50,211 nucleotides of DNA from a virus, in the IMG/VR virus record IMGVR_UViG_3300040801_002785, positions 1 to 50,211 of that record, one strand, 5' to 3'. The notes below the pieces were generated by a model, which searched no databases, was not told where the DNA came from, and saw only the letters and a list, made by a program, of their open reading frames with translations. The position numbers and the translations under genes are program-made. Of the stretch, positions 2,177 through 49,798 are shown one piece after another. Each line of letters opens with the position of its first letter. Within the stretch, counting starts at the first letter, position 1.

Positions 2177-2988
2177 TGGTTGACCCCTTCGCGCGTATCC
2201 TCCAACGCCGCCCGAACCGCTTCCGCTAGCGTCATGCTGTCACGCGATACAAGCGCCTCGGGGAGTTCGGCCCACGCCTCTCGGATCACGTTTGCCTGCT
2301 CGTGCATCGCGACCTCGAGCTGGTTTGCGTCTGTAGTCGTGACCTCAAGGTGCTCGCGCAACTGCTCCGCCTGGAAGCGCATGGCATCGACAGCTTCACG
2401 ACACCGTGCGTCCACGAGCTCAGCGACTCTCCAGCGCCCGTACGTCTCGCCTGTCCACCGCATCACTCCATGCGTAACGAGTCGAGGGACACCCTCTGTG
2501 TGTTCACACCACGGGTGATGCCCAAACTCATAGGGCCCATGGTCCCACTCTCTGATCACGTCCGACCCGACGACCAGCTCTAGGAGGTGCCGCGCAGAGT
2601 AGGCGGCCTCAGCGCGCACCTCCTCCCGCAGCCGCTCCACTTCCGCCCGCAGTCCCACCGCTTCTGCGCAGAGTTCGTCGGCGCTGTCCGAAACGTCTTC
2701 AAATGCAGCCTGCCATCCCTCCACCTCCTCCCGCAGCCGCTCGACCTCCGAGCGCTCGTCACGCTCCGGCTTGGGCGGTCGTTTGTCGAGAGGGACGGCG
2801 TCGCGCACACCGCACGACCAGCCCTCGAAGCCGTCCGGCCAGATCACGTCGCTCATCACGCCCTCGCGGTCGTCGCTGTGCTGGACATCAGCACCGACGA
2901 GTTCGCCGTCGTGCTTATAGATGGCAATCACGACCATGAAGGCGTCGCCTCGGACCCACACGTCGCCGGGCCTTGGTGTGTGCGTCAT
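2173..2988 (-). CDS. Coiled-coil protein, unknown function
   Basis: A 271-residue protein starting MTHTPRPGDVWVRGD. The first 75 residues look like a small beta-rich domain (DVWVRGDAFMVVIAIY). Long charged helices with heptad character follow (SEVERLREEVEGWQAAF; AEVERLREEVRAEAAY) and a helical C-terminus. A start at 3081 is rejected because its extra residues only read an arginine-rich shadow of the repeat in the next gene. Coupled to both neighbours by ATGA overlaps. Function not inferable. Confidence 0.6.
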   Translation of the reverse strand: MTHTPRPGDVWVRGDAFMVVIAIYKHDGELVGADVQHSDDREGVMSDVIWPDGFEGWSCGVRDAVPLDKRPPKPERDERSEVERLREEVEGWQAAFEDVSDSADELCAEAVGLRAEVERLREEVRAEAAYSARHLLELVVGSDVIREWDHGPYEFGHHPWCEHTEGVPRLVTHGVMRWTGETYGRWRVAELVDARCREAVDAMRFQAEQLREHLEVTTTDANQLEVAMHEQANVIREAWAELPEALVSRDSMTLAEAVRAALEDTREGVNQ

Positions 2989-3353
2989 GGCTCTACCCTG
3001 CCGTAGCCGTGGCCGTCGCCGTAGCCGTCGCCATCGCCGTAGCCGTGGCCGTAGCCGTCGCCTTCGCCGTAGCCGACGCAAACGCCATAGCCATGACCGT
3101 CGCCATCGCCGTAGCCGTGGCCGTATCCACAGCCGTAGCCGTCAAGGCCACATGCAAGGCGGGCCCACTCCGCATCATCGGGTGTCATTGCACTCAGAAG
3201 GTCATCGAGTCTCACGCTCTCGCGGTCTCCAATGAACTTAAGTGCACGTTGAAGCCCATCCTTGCATGGAGGGTCGCCCAGTGAGTCTCGAAGTGCGCGG
3301 CACCAAGAAGCGTCCACGTAGTCGGGAATAGGCTGTATTTGCTTCAGAACCAC
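2985..3353 (-). CDS. Protein with Gly-Tyr-Asp repeat tail
   Basis: A 122-residue protein. Residues 1-68 form an ordinary helical domain. From about residue 69 to the end the chain is almost entirely Gly alternating with Tyr, Asp, His and a few others (GYGDGDGHGYG-like units), encoded by a degenerate hexanucleotide repeat at about 3000-3135. Such tails are flexible and may be prone to length change by slippage. I recall similar Gly/Tyr/Ser tails in phage hypothetical proteins, function unknown. Confidence 0.55.
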   Translation of the reverse strand: MVLKQIQPIPDYVDASWCRALRDSLGDPPCKDGLQRALKFIGDRESVRLDDLLSAMTPDDAEWARLACGLDGYGCGYGHGYGDGDGHGYGVCVGYGEGDGYGHGYGDGDGYGDGHGYGRVEP

Positions 3354-7195: not shown

Positions 7196-7280
7196 GGTTC
7201 GGTAGGGTAAGGTGCGGTGCGGTCTGGTATGGTTAGGTTGGGTTTGGTCCGGCTTGGTTTGGTAGGGTACGTTGCGGTTT
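7196..7280. repeat. GGTNN pentamer array 1 (17 units)
   Basis: Seventeen consecutive five-base units of the form GGTNN on the plus strand (NNACC on the transcribed minus strand), with two deviating units (GGCTT, GTTGC). The last two bases of each unit vary freely. The array ends against the hairpin at 7281-7300 and on its other side abuts the ribosome site of the RAMP-like gene, so it forms that gene's 5' leader. Confidence 0.9.
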
Positions 7281-7300
7281 GGCCTCTCGACGAATCGAGG
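7281..7300. repeat. Hairpin element, copy 1
   Basis: CCTCTCGA-CGAA-TCGAGGGG-type inverted repeat with an eight-pair stem, including one wobble, and a four-base loop. The flanks GGTTTGG before it and GGTAGT after it are identical in copy 2 at 7401-7420. It has no T-run, so it does not look like a terminator. Confidence 0.85.
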
Positions 7301-7340
7301 GGTAGTAGCGCCCCGCCCAGCGGACGAGGTCTTTGGTTTT

Positions 7341-7400
7341 GGTTCGGTTCGGTGCGGTAAGGTGCGGTTCGGTCCGGCATGGTCCGGCGTGGTATGGTTT
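7341..7400. repeat. GGTNN pentamer array 2 (12 units)
   Basis: Twelve in-phase units, ten of them GGTNN, ending in GGTAT GGTTT directly before the second hairpin copy. It is separated from array 1 by copy 1 of the hairpin plus about 40 unrelated bases. Confidence 0.9.
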
Positions 7401-7420
7401 GGCCTCTCGACGAATCGAGG
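7401..7420. repeat. Hairpin element, copy 2
   Basis: Identical in stem and loop to the element at 7281-7300, 120 bases away, and likewise placed at the end of a GGTNN array. It lies just downstream of the stop codon of the minus-strand nuclease gene, so in the transcript the order is stop, hairpin, array 2, spacer, hairpin, array 1, ribosome site. Confidence 0.85.
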
Positions 7421-7428
7421 GGTAGTTT

Positions 7429-15892: not shown

Positions 15893-15965
15893 CGTCGCGT
15901 TGGTGCCGTTCCTGATCGCCTTCGCCGGTATGTGCGCTGTGCTGCTTTGGGAGTATGAGCGATGA
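15882..15965 (+). CDS. 27-residue single-span membrane peptide
   Basis: MLSDVALVPFLIAFAGMC... is one hydrophobic helix ending in WEYER. It overlaps the HTH gene by 11 bases, and its TGA overlaps the next ATG (15962). That ATG opens a frame, MTCALRCDVC, which runs into the HNH leader and so seems to be a gene cut by the insertion. Confidence 0.4.
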   Translation: MLSDVALVPFLIAFAGMCAVLLWEYER

Positions 15966-15987
15966 CCTGCGCTCTTCGATGCGACGT

Positions 15988-16069
15988 GTGCTACAATGTG
16001 CGTGAAAACAAGTGGTCCCGGCGAGGCGGCAACCTCCCGGGACCTGACCCACAGAAAAGGTTGGTTCCC
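15988..16069 (+). promoter_or_regulatory. HNH leader element, copy A
   Basis: Begins GTGCTACAATG (TGCTACAAT resembles an extended -10), then a hairpin at 16015-16043: GTCCCGG-CG-AGG-loop CGGCAA-CCT-C-CCGGGAC, then TGACCCACAGAAAAGG and GTTCCCATGGATGA. Copies B (27898-27967) and C (48920-48990) share every segment, with compensating stem changes. Here the HNH gene behind it is almost completely lost. Confidence 0.75.
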
Positions 16070-16147
16070 ATGGATGAGCGCACTCTCGCCCGCTTTATGC
16101 CAGGCGCCGTTCCGCCCAGGAGCCTTTCCGAGGCGTGTAAGCGATGA
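16070..16147 (+). pseudogene. HNH endonuclease remnant (first ten codons)
   Basis: MDERTLARFM is nearly identical to the start of the intact HNH gene at 48991 (MDERTLAHFM), including the DNA. The frame then continues with unrelated sequence for 15 codons to a TGA that overlaps the next ATG. This is a deleted homing-endonuclease insertion whose leader and first codons survive. Confidence 0.75.
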
Positions 16148-26505: not shown

Positions 26506-27386
26506 TCGGACGGCCTCGCGAGCTTGTCGTTCGTTCCGCCATCACAGGCGCGGCGCTCTTCGAAGACTTCCGCGACCAGCTCGCCTATGACCTATCACGC
26601 GTGACCAGCGAAAGCGCCGCCCTTGAAGCTGCGGAGCGCTGGGGACGTGAGGTGGTCGACAAGAGCCCCGCGCTCGCCAACCTCATATGGCAAGCGAACG
26701 CGCAAACGCACATGGCTGGTCAGCTCTTTGTCCGCGACATTGAGGTCGGCAGCAAGAGCCGCAGCCTCGAGGCCAAGGGCGAGACCGCCGACAACTTCGT
26801 GAACCTCGCGTTCGCGGAAGCCATCGACCAGTTTGAGTCACGCGCCATTATGCCGGCCGACGAGTTTGACGAACTGATTGACGCCGAGCGCTCTCGAGCC
26901 TTCACGGTTCGAAACGCAGTGTCGACCGGCGTTGTCCGACAAGCCTTCACGCAGATCCGCAACGCGATGGCGCCGGGCGGCCCTGGTCTTGGCGAGTTCA
27001 TCGAGAATCTGCAAGCCGGCACCGATGCGAGCGGATACCCCGGCGGCGTTCGCAGGTACCTTGAGGCGGTTTTTCGAACCAGCACGGCAACTTCGTATGC
27101 AGCTGGTCGTTATCGGCAGCAGACGGATCCAGAGCTTGGAAGCGGTTTGTTTTGGGAGTTCTTGACGGTTGGAGACAGCCGCGTACGACCGGAGCACGCA
27201 GCGCTCGAAGGCAAGCAGTGGCCCGTGGGAGACCCAGACGGAGCGAACGCTTACCCTCCGTTGGGCTACCAGTGCCGGTGCGTTATGCGGGTCATCGAGG
27301 ACCCAGACGAAGCGCAGCTCGGTCGCACCGTCGATATCTCGGGTGCAACCGATGAGGGCTTCAGTGGTGCGCCGTCGATCGAATAG
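26460..27386 (+). CDS. MuF-like head morphogenesis protein
   Basis: A 308-residue protein. The C-terminal domain DSRVRPEHAALEGKQWPVGD, then AYPPLGYQCRC is the SPP1 gp7/Mu gpF signature; these minor head proteins bind the portal during assembly. Its only ATG is inside the portal gene and the frame is open for 26 codons upstream. From about 27080 the codon use becomes less GC-biased, as in the endolysin 3' end next to the other HNH gene. Confidence 0.82.
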   Translation: MRALSDSDRERAVRLIGRPRELVVRSAITGAALFEDFRDQLAYDLSRVTSESAALEAAERWGREVVDKSPALANLIWQANAQTHMAGQLFVRDIEVGSKSRSLEAKGETADNFVNLAFAEAIDQFESRAIMPADEFDELIDAERSRAFTVRNAVSTGVVRQAFTQIRNAMAPGGPGLGEFIENLQAGTDASGYPGGVRRYLEAVFRTSTATSYAAGRYRQQTDPELGSGLFWEFLTVGDSRVRPEHAALEGKQWPVGDPDGANAYPPLGYQCRCVMRVIEDPDEAQLGRTVDISGATDEGFSGAPSIE

Positions 27387-27897
27387 GCAGGTGCTTCCAT
27401 AGGCGCCCATTCTTGATGTGAGAGATCGTAGCTCTACTCATGCCGAATATATCGGCAACAACTTGGCATGTTGCTCCGTTGGCGATCATGTCTCGAATCT
27501 CGTGAACATCATCCTCGGACAGCTTCGCGCACCCGTGAAGCTCTCCGCTTTGCTGAGGTCTTGGCACTCCAATCGTGGAACGACCTTTCAAGACCATGTC
27601 GGTGAGGTTTTCCTGTCTGGTACCAACGAACAAGTGCTCCGGGTTTACGCATGTTCGCGTATCGCAATGGTGGCAAACGCAGAGACCTGCTGTTTCGTGG
27701 CCGCCCAGGAACTTCGCCGACAGTCTGTGTGCGAGCCACTGCTTTCGACGTGTGCCAACCAGCGCGCTTAGCAATCCATAGCCTGCGTGGTTGATGCTAC
27801 CCATCCACAGCCAGCACGGCGTGTCGACATGAGGCGAGGCCATGTCGGTCTGTTTTTCGACCTTCGACATGAAGCGTCGTAGAGTCTTCTCATCCAT
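27361..27897 (-). CDS. HNH_3-type homing endonuclease with C-terminal HTH
   Basis: A 178-residue protein convergent with MuF and overlapping its end by 26 bases. N-terminus MDEKTLRRFMSKVEKQTD; core AHRLSAKFLGG, CHHCDTRTCVNPEHLFVGT, ENLTDM; C-terminal HTH (QVVADIFGMSRATISHIKNG). Same family as the genes at 10.3-10.8 and 49.0-49.7 kb. The preceding leader (copy B) carries the shared hairpin. Confidence 0.85.
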   Translation of the reverse strand: MDEKTLRRFMSKVEKQTDMASPHVDTPCWLWMGSINHAGYGLLSALVGTRRKQWLAHRLSAKFLGGHETAGLCVCHHCDTRTCVNPEHLFVGTRQENLTDMVLKGRSTIGVPRPQQSGELHGCAKLSEDDVHEIRDMIANGATCQVVADIFGMSRATISHIKNGRLWKHLPIRSTAHH

Positions 27898-27967
27898 GGG
27901 AACTACCTTTCTCGTGGGTCACGTCCCGGGCTGTTGGCGCAGCGCCGGGACACTGTATTTGTAGCAC
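27898..27967 (-). promoter_or_regulatory. HNH leader element, copy B
   Basis: On the minus strand: GTGCTACAAATAC, then the hairpin at 27951-27923: GTCCCGG-CG-CTG-loop CGCCAA-CAG-C-CCGGGAC, then GTGACCCACGAGAAAGG and GTTCCCATGGATGA. Inner stem CTG/CAG replaces AGG/CCT of copy A and CCG/CGG of copy C. Confidence 0.78.
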
Positions 27968-48172: not shown

Positions 48173-48336
48173 CCGACCTCGAACACGCGGCCCTCGCGTG
48201 GGCTCGCACGCAGGAGATGCCGGCGAGCACGCGGCGAGATGTGAAGCGCGCCGAGCTCGTGCTACGTGCCGCGGCGCGGCGGTACTGGGCCGAGCGACGA
48301 CTTGAAGAGGACACGAAGCCGGAGGCGGCAGAGTGA
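48169..48336 (+). CDS. 55-residue helical protein
   Basis: GTG start with GTGA overlaps on both sides. VTDLEHAALAWARTQEMPAS... is a short helical, arginine-rich protein. Function unknown; position directly before the endolysin. Confidence 0.4.
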   Translation: MTDLEHAALAWARTQEMPASTRRDVKRAELVLRAAARRYWAERRLEEDTKPEAAE

Positions 48337-48917
48337 CGCTTCCCAAGGGGGCCGAGCTCGAGGCCCGCATCGCCGGCGGCGTGCATCTGTATGACGTCTC
48401 CCACCTCCTGCCGCGCACGAAAAGTACAAAGCGCGACGAGGGCGGCATTGACCGCCTCTTCGTCCACCACAGCGGCGCCCTGGGCCGGCCCGGCTTCGAG
48501 GGGGCGCTGGCTTCTGCGCGCTACGTCGTGGGCAAACGAGGCTTCCCCGGACCGGCGTACACCTACTGGGTGCCGGCGGAGGACTACCGCGACAGCGAGG
48601 GCGCGCTCGTGGTGCTGCGGCTCAACCCCGACTCGGAGCGCTCGTGGCACACCGGAGGCAAGGCGAACGACCGCGGCGTCGCCGTGGCGTTGCAGGGCAG
48701 CACGACGGCCCGGCCGCTGACGCACTCGCATGAGGAGTGCCTCGAGGCATTGCTGCCTTACTGCATCAATAGGTATGGCCTGGTCATGCCTGAAGCGTTG
48801 TCGTTTCACGCAGAGGCAGACAAGCATGGCGGGCGAAAAAAGACTTCTTGCCCAGGTATCCATGCAGAGGCTTGGATACGTGGTTATCGGCGTGGTTGGT
48901 CGGCGCCAGCGGCGTAG
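48333..48917 (+). CDS. N-acetylmuramoyl-L-alanine amidase endolysin
   Basis: A 194-residue PGRP/amidase_2-type enzyme. FVHHSG (about 44-49) and SFHAEADKHGGRKKTSCPG (about 154-172) contain the zinc-binding His/Cys and the catalytic Lys region. GTG start. Up to about 48750 the codons are strongly GC-rich; from there to the stop they are AT-richer. An orphan copy of exactly this last part lies behind the HNH gene at 49655-49798. The 3' end therefore seems to have been replaced. Confidence 0.85.
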   Translation: MTLPKGAELEARIAGGVHLYDVSHLLPRTKSTKRDEGGIDRLFVHHSGALGRPGFEGALASARYVVGKRGFPGPAYTYWVPAEDYRDSEGALVVLRLNPDSERSWHTGGKANDRGVAVALQGSTTARPLTHSHEECLEALLPYCINRYGLVMPEALSFHAEADKHGGRKKTSCPGIHAEAWIRGYRRGWSAPAA

Positions 48918-48919
48918 GT

Positions 48920-48990
48920 GTGCTACTCATAGAGTGTCCCCGCGCCGCTGGAACGGTCGGGGACATGACCCACAGGAAAGGTTGGTTCCC
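48920..48990 (+). promoter_or_regulatory. HNH leader element, copy C
   Basis: GTGCTACTCATAG, then the hairpin at 48936-48964: GTCCCCG-CG-CCG-loop CTGGAA-CGG-T-CGGGGAC, then ATGACCCACAGGAAAGG and GTTCCCATGGATGA. Both the outer stem (CG pair in place of GC) and the inner stem differ from copies A and B while keeping pairing. It starts three bases after the endolysin stop. Confidence 0.8.
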
Positions 48991-49653
48991 ATGGATGAGC
49001 GCACTCTCGCCCACTTTATGGAGAAGGTCCAGAAGCAAAGCGAAGTCACCTCGCCGCACGTCGACACGCCGTGCTGGCTTTGGACTGGTGGCGTCGATAA
49101 AGACGGGTACGGATGTTGGTACGTAGGGGGTGCGGCTCGAGCGCATCGGAGGATGTTCGAGCACGCAAAAAGACCTCTGGGCCGCAAGTGGTGTCTGCAT
49201 GTCTGCGACACACCTTCGTGTGTAAACCCAGACCATTTGTTCGAGGGGACTCCGAAAGACAACACGCGTGACATGATTGGCAAGGGGAGGAACAAGAAGG
49301 GCAACCTCCACCACGCTCGAAGGCTGTCAAGAGCATCGGTCGTTGATGTGCGACGCCTCTATGCTCTTGGGAAAAACATCTATGACCTGGGGACCGCGTT
49401 TGACGTAGATCCATCAACAATACGAAGAGCAGTAACCGGCAAGACTTGGTCGCACGTGCCGGGTGCTGTTTCATGTCGAACAGCGGCTGAGTCCAACCGC
49501 CAAAAGTCACGAATGACGCCCGGACTTGTGCGCAAGGTGCGCTGGTTGAGGTCAGCTGGATTCACATACCCAGAGATTGGATACGCGTTCGACATCAGCC
49601 GACACCAGGCCGGTATGATATGCAGGCGAAAGATCTGGTCGCATGTATCCTAG
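48991..49653 (+). CDS. HNH_3-type homing endonuclease with two HTH units
   Basis: A 220-residue protein. N-terminus MDERTLAHFMEKVQKQSE; HNH core AHRRMFEHA, HVCDTPSCVNPDHLFEGT, DNTRDM; then two HTH units (IYDLGTAFDVDPSTIRRAVT; YPEIGYAFDISRHQAGMI). Same family as those at 10.3 and 27.4 kb. It has replaced and displaced the endolysin 3' end; its TAG is directly followed by the orphan endolysin segment. Confidence 0.86.
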   Translation: MDERTLAHFMEKVQKQSEVTSPHVDTPCWLWTGGVDKDGYGCWYVGGAARAHRRMFEHAKRPLGRKWCLHVCDTPSCVNPDHLFEGTPKDNTRDMIGKGRNKKGNLHHARRLSRASVVDVRRLYALGKNIYDLGTAFDVDPSTIRRAVTGKTWSHVPGAVSCRTAAESNRQKSRMTPGLVRKVRWLRSAGFTYPEIGYAFDISRHQAGMICRRKIWSHVS

Positions 49654-49654
49654 G

Positions 49655-49798
49655 TGCGTGGCGCGATACTCGCTGCCGATGCCCGAGGGGCTCTCGTGGC
49701 ACTCGCGGGCGACCGCGGACGGCGGGCGGAGCAAGGCCGCGTGCCCCGGAAAGGGTGCGGAGGCGTGGCTTCGGGGGTACCTGCGGAGCACCTTGTAG
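49655..49798 (+). pseudogene. Orphan endolysin C-terminal segment
   Basis: 47 codons to a TAG. Without gaps, 26 of 46 residues match the current endolysin end: shared RY, MPE, LS, GGR, CPG, AEAW and RGY blocks. It has no start codon and GC-rich codons like the endolysin body, so it appears to be the original 3' end left behind when the HNH unit inserted. Confidence 0.88.

Follow-up and report, generated by a model that had tools for sequence, protein, structure and literature searches.

A conserved RNA fold, built from two covarying hairpins, spans the ribosome-binding site of the first gene behind a small phage leader. The two-hairpin structure is carried by compensatory base changes, while its function is inferred from sequence: we give about even weight to the reading that the leader is a portable cis-acting RNA of phage transcription units, tuning translation initiation of the first gene. 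The leader RNA appears to be a gene-control element not described before and shared by many phages.

The DNA analysed here (the window, 50,211 nt), the sequence of a virus record, carries direct terminal repeats of 117 bp and is therefore probably a complete phage genome. A sequence-only reading had placed three copies of a leader in it, and all three were found as given, together with their motifs. The elements of each copy are as follows.

15992-15997, plus strand: possible extended -10 element of copy 1 (TGC-TACAAT), read from the sequence
16014-16044, plus strand: P1 hairpin of copy 1 (outer stem, bulged C, inner stem, CGGCAA loop), from a fold scan
16045-16069, plus strand: copy 1 linker TGACCCAC, Shine-Dalgarno AAAAGG, and GGTTCCC reaching the start codon
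27921-27953, minus strand: P1 hairpin of copy 2 (CGCCAA loop), from the fold scan
27898-27920, minus strand: copy 2 linker, Shine-Dalgarno AAAGG, GTTCCC
48934-48966, plus strand: P1 hairpin of copy 3 (CTGGAA loop), from the fold scan
48967-48990, plus strand: copy 3 linker, Shine-Dalgarno GGAAAGG, GGTTCCC

The outer stem of P1 reads GTCCCGG/CCGGGAC in copies 1 and 2 and GTCCCCG/CGGGGAC in copy 3, and the 4-bp inner stem reads GAGG/CCTC, GCTG/CAGC and GCCG/CGGT in copies 1, 2 and 3, respectively; a single bulged C lies between the two stems in every copy. The base pair just beyond the outer stem also covaries (G-C, U-G and U-A), the six-base loops all follow the pattern CNNNAA, and on the 3' side of P1 each copy continues with TGACCCAC, then the Shine-Dalgarno sequence, then GTTCCCATGGATGA. 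A fold scan of both strands of the window returned three full-length sites, namely copies 1-3, and one 5-bp partial site, while the same scan of 30 shuffled windows gave no site with an outer stem of at least 7 bp. The fixed layout, the loop pattern and the stem swaps that had been described are confirmed. A covariance model of the leader (R1) matched the copies at 16005-16092 (60.5 bits), 27869-27961 (64.2 bits) and 48926-49013 (53.3 bits). GTGCTAC is common to the window copies only; it is absent from the wider family pattern and overlaps the possible extended -10 element. Of the further elements that characterize the family as a whole (see below), the second helix P2 forms weakly in copies 1-3 and the post-start motif ANNNUA is kept in copy 2 only (ACTCTA). 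No T run follows the hairpin in the window copies. Elsewhere in the window, two 86-nt direct repeats (7221-7306 and 7341-7426) with GGT-rich units have the common ending TTTGGCCTCTCGACGAATCGAGGGGTAGT, and an array of 6-nt GCCGTN-type repeats with spacings of 12 and 18 lies at 2976-3154.

The leader had been described as shared by three HNH loci, which is true of copies 2 and 3, whereas only about 10 HNH codons are left behind copy 1. The genes concerned are listed here, along with a further HNH gene of the window.

16070-16147, plus strand: 25-codon ORF behind copy 1, with about 10 HNH codons (MDERTLARFM) followed by unrelated sequence
27361-27897, minus strand: HNH_3 and helix-turn-helix nuclease gene behind copy 2 (HNH2), 178 aa, Pfam HNH_3 E=4.5e-7
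48991-49653, plus strand: HNH_3-like gene with a helix-turn-helix match behind copy 3 (HNH3), 220 aa
10274-10780, minus strand: fourth HNH gene, without leader, 43% identical to HNH2

Judged by its HNH codons, the 25-codon ORF is the remnant of a lost HNH gene. It overlaps the next gene (ATG at 16144) by ATGA, so the leader, now an orphan, may be driving a phage operon. HNH2 lies antisense between two head genes, and the fourth HNH gene has a GTG start at the very end of its upstream gene. The copy 3 protein is 40% identical to HNH2; its Pfam matches, HNH_3 (E=0.0037) and HTH_38 (E=5.5e-4), are weak, both falling under the curated cut-offs. The free-standing HNH genes behind copies 2 and 3 are candidate homing-endonuclease cassettes. 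A 47-kb relative, G001 (loci L032, L047 and L048), has no insert at site 1 or site 2; in the window, the site 1 insert (15893-16147) consists of a 27-codon membrane-like ORF, the leader copy and the 25-codon ORF. At site 3 the C-terminus of the upstream gene occurs in two places, one ahead of the leader and one past the HNH gene, as if the end of the interrupted gene had been re-supplied by the insert. Residues 123-187 of that upstream gene (48333-48917) recur at 49595-49786 with 48% identity. In addition, the relative L002 carries a nearly identical copy-2 leader in front of a different HNH body, with the frame shifted near the start; this body is closer to the fourth HNH gene (51%) than to HNH2 (45%), which suggests that HNH bodies have been exchanged behind one leader.

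We also considered, and rejected, the possibility that the leader is a feature of one phage: scans with its flank words (TGACCCAC / AAAGG / TTCCCATGGATGA) gave only L002 and chance matches, but a search with the hairpin only found more. BLAST of the window copies against phages and plasmids found no leader. The hairpin-only pattern recovered the same fold in unrelated phages, upstream of other HNH and EndoVII-type genes, and BLAST with those new copies reached Propionibacterium phages Anatole, E1 and B3, Pseudanabaena phage Pan2, Arthrobacter phage Phrank15 and others. The last scan of viral contigs, which used the hairpin core alone and was blind to the neighbouring gene, gave at least 118 distinct sites. 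Three pairs that the pattern had left free were all kept in 108 of the 118 sites listed, against about 5% expected by chance; the remaining bases were fixed by the search pattern, and their invariance is uninformative. Prevalence and gene share are likewise biased by the pattern, and the figures given below are those among the matches listed, which come mainly from viral contigs and from few bacterial genomes.

A covariance-model search of phages, as the sequence-only reading had proposed, revealed further covariation in copies outside the search pattern. R1 was positive in 32 of 33 records, and the pattern-independent copies carry other stems (for example GCCCUCG/CGAGGGC with UCCUG/CAGGA) and have a bulge or a small internal loop in the corresponding position, with the one exception of G020, which has no bulge. 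On a single Planctomycetota genome the model gave no match, an uninformative result. Comparison with Rfam 15, also proposed, returned only a tRNA and no leader family for the window and no match at the curated score for seven leader loci; a permissive search with ten leader loci gave four matches, all far under the gathering score. In the open-access literature searched, we found no described HNH-associated leader.

Nearly all of the sites listed are leaders of about 80 nt in which P1, a UGRC motif, P2, the start codon and ANNNUA follow one another in this order. In an alignment of 89 leader sequences (A4), P1 comprises 11 pairs. Both bases vary in five of these, with double changes in 17-52 sequences, and 96.5% of cells are paired. 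When partners were slid by 1-3 columns, the two-helix covariation score of this alignment fell from 0.40 to 0.03-0.07. The P1 pairs changed on both sides, the sliding control and the held-out copies together strongly support the earlier claim of a functional hairpin held by compensatory change. Mutual information recovered the P1 pairs and, in addition, P2, in which the linker pairs with bases just 5' of the start codon. Among leaders with CC in the linker, P2 is paired in about 65-80%, and a C·A recurs at one of its positions (35 of 48). P2 holds the Shine-Dalgarno sequence in its loop or 3' strand and adjoins the start codon. The loop of P1 is GNNA-like and closed by C·A, and the G of UGRC is conserved at 90%. 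A second subtype has UGRCA, a P2 nearer the start codon, and the post-start motif at +10 rather than +7.

The earlier reading had left open whether the hairpin acts as RNA or DNA. Because P2 encloses the Shine-Dalgarno sequence and abuts the start codon, RNA is favoured. A DNA-level element, forming a cruciform or single-strand hairpin for the insertion or recombination of nuclease cassettes, would account for the different ORFs joined behind leaders and for L002, with its same leader and different HNH body; we regard it as very improbable, since P2 pairs across the Shine-Dalgarno sequence, ordinary phage operons are also headed by the leader, and no matching right-hand end was seen.

ANNNUA lies 4-13 nt past the start codon in most leaders, with its A, U and A near-invariant, and was found in the first codons of 93 leaders compared to 3-12 at shifted offsets. 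In the Arthrobacter phages it stands in a different reading frame, indicating that the constraint acts at the nucleotide level. No pairing partner for the motif was found in the leader alignments. Pairing between ANNNUA and UGRC, seen by eye in one subtype, showed no covariation, and a role for ANNNUA as a -10-like pause element (A-11, T-7) is disfavoured, T being depleted at the -12 place (4%). Upstream of the leaders, good -10-like hexamers occur in 31% of cases compared to 11% of shuffled flanks, a modest sign of a promoter close by.

P1 itself is strong, with a stability of about -15 to -28 kcal/mol, and probably lies near the 5' end of the transcript. Both features would suit a 5'-end stabilizer or processing element, in which the hairpin shields the mRNA from degradation or serves as an RNase cleavage site. 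Any strong hairpin would serve this purpose, yet the bulged C, the loop pattern, UGRC and ANNNUA are all conserved, which makes such a role quite unlikely. That P1 is instead the intrinsic terminator of the upstream gene is largely refuted: its core runs into a clear T tract in L059, L063 and L113, but these are only 3 of about 108 sites, and the rest continue into UGRC, the Shine-Dalgarno sequence and the start codon. At these three sites, including L059 1501-1529 (Acetobacter phage phiAP1), P1 core and T tract are apparently used as an intrinsic terminator.

The genes behind the leader show how far it is tied to the nuclease family, as had been proposed. Pfam searches of 94 downstream proteins gave HNH_3 in 34, HNH in 19 and HNH_5 in 17 (these HNH-type counts overlap), Endonuclease_7 in 6, GIY-YIG-like domains in a few, phage integrase in 3, Prim-Pol in 2 and resolvase in 1. 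Combining Pfam with motif inspection by eye, approximately 72 of 106 downstream genes, or about two thirds of first genes among the matches listed, are nuclease-like, among them the annotated HNH genes gp33 and gp38 of Phrank15, gp27 of Pitbull and gp98 of Richie. The tie is genuine without being exclusive: in the other direction, only 2 of 22 related HNH loci, collected by protein similarity alone, have the leader (L007 and L009), and the first genes also include integrases, primases, a resolvase and the leading genes of Arthrobacter-phage operons. The leader heads multigene units at Pitbull gp31 and gp65 and in Anekin, Auxilium, EvePickles, Zucker and Richie; in the latter five, it stands where leftward and rightward genes turn. 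From its position before operon genes and its rarity at HNH loci, we conclude that the leader marks phage transcription units, nuclease genes being the commonest among them.

These operon-leading copies in temperate phages also fit antitermination, which counts against the translation reading. In this main rival explanation, a put-like RNA for processive antitermination or anti-pausing, the two hairpins would form behind RNA polymerase shortly past the promoter and modify it so that terminators are read through. The two adjacent stem-loops, their total size, similar to that of HK022 putRNA, and their possible place near a promoter (PMC9378689) are consistent with this, as are the Arthrobacter-phage copies at the head of multigene operons next to the integrase and control region, which it fits better; the spread over phages of unrelated hosts also points to a partner found in all of them, such as RNA polymerase. 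Yet P2 is locked to the Shine-Dalgarno sequence and start codon and the conserved part enters the gene, neither of which antitermination needs, most copies lead single short nuclease genes, and the likeness to put is one of general layout, with no match seen in sequence or in structural detail. On balance we consider a put-like function unlikely.

Regulation of translation initiation is supported by the covariation of both P1 and P2, by the nucleotide-level conservation of ANNNUA, and by held-out copies that keep the fold; the element coincides with the initiation footprint of the ribosome. In the mechanism we propose, the leader would be transcribed from its own promoter just upstream and would tune translation initiation of the first gene, with P2 having to open for the ribosome and with P1, UGRC and ANNNUA as putative binding points for a factor or for the ribosome during initiation. 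We know of no factor that binds the leader. Mobile nucleases landing anywhere, even antisense, would bring the leader unit with them and so obtain weak or conditional expression. Plain Shine-Dalgarno sequestration was considered separately: the predicted mean unpaired probability of the Shine-Dalgarno sequence is 0.47 in leaders compared to 0.38 in other genes of the same contigs, and because accessibility is thus no lower than in controls, simple burial is unsupported. More broadly, and at somewhat less than even weight, these leaders may make up an undescribed family of cis-acting RNAs, widespread in tailed phages. Each would belong to a self-contained expression unit of promoter, two-hairpin leader, start codon and post-start motif that is read by machinery common to unrelated bacteria and that serves both operons and the selfish nucleases exploiting the same control.

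It is rare for a small structured leader with so much covariation to be overlooked, yet Rfam has no entry for this one, even though more than 100 phage sequences carry it among the matches listed. It offers a marker for unannotated phage transcription units and nuclease genes, and points to a layer of gene control common to phages of unrelated hosts. With isolates at hand (Arthrobacter phages Pitbull, Richie and Phrank15; Propionibacterium phage Anatole), it also provides a compact system in which to ask how selfish nucleases restrain their expression.

Several known systems resemble the leader in part. HEARO and the omega RNA of IscB are structured RNAs beside an HNH-domain gene, as here; unlike them, the leader has about 80 nt and two hairpins, no Rfam match, and small HNH_3/EndoVII nucleases and other genes behind it. 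Operators of the MS2/PP7 type have a bulged base on the 5' side, a few pairs under a 4-6-nt loop, near the ribosome-binding site, a likeness that goes no further than analogy, as the bulge here is C rather than A, the phages are tailed DNA phages, and no coat-type RNA-binding protein is known. HK022 putRNA comprises two stem-loops of about 70 nt next to early promoters and binds the beta' zinc-binding domain (PMC9378689). The leader likewise has two stem-loops and heads early operons, and there is a modest signal of a promoter nearby (31% compared to 11%), but in the leader the ribosome-binding site and start codon are joined directly to the element, which stands mostly at single nuclease genes. 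Closest in role among published systems, by analogy, are the hairpins of T4-type homing endonucleases (I-TevI, segB, Aeh1 mobE and seg43(25) of Aeromonas phage 25), which are RNA-hairpin-controlled at single loci, mostly by keeping the ribosome-binding site hidden until transcription starts from a late promoter (PMC2988022). Above all this applies to seg43(25), whose ribosome-binding site is left open by a very stable hairpin immediately 5' of it (PMC2988022). In both cases a structured RNA, covarying here, lies directly 5' of a mobile phage nuclease gene. Unlike the T4-type hairpins, however, the leader has one conserved two-hairpin form with a defined bulge, loop and post-start motif, its ribosome-binding site is not more buried than in ordinary genes (0.47 compared to 0.38), and it recurs in unrelated phages and in front of other gene classes.
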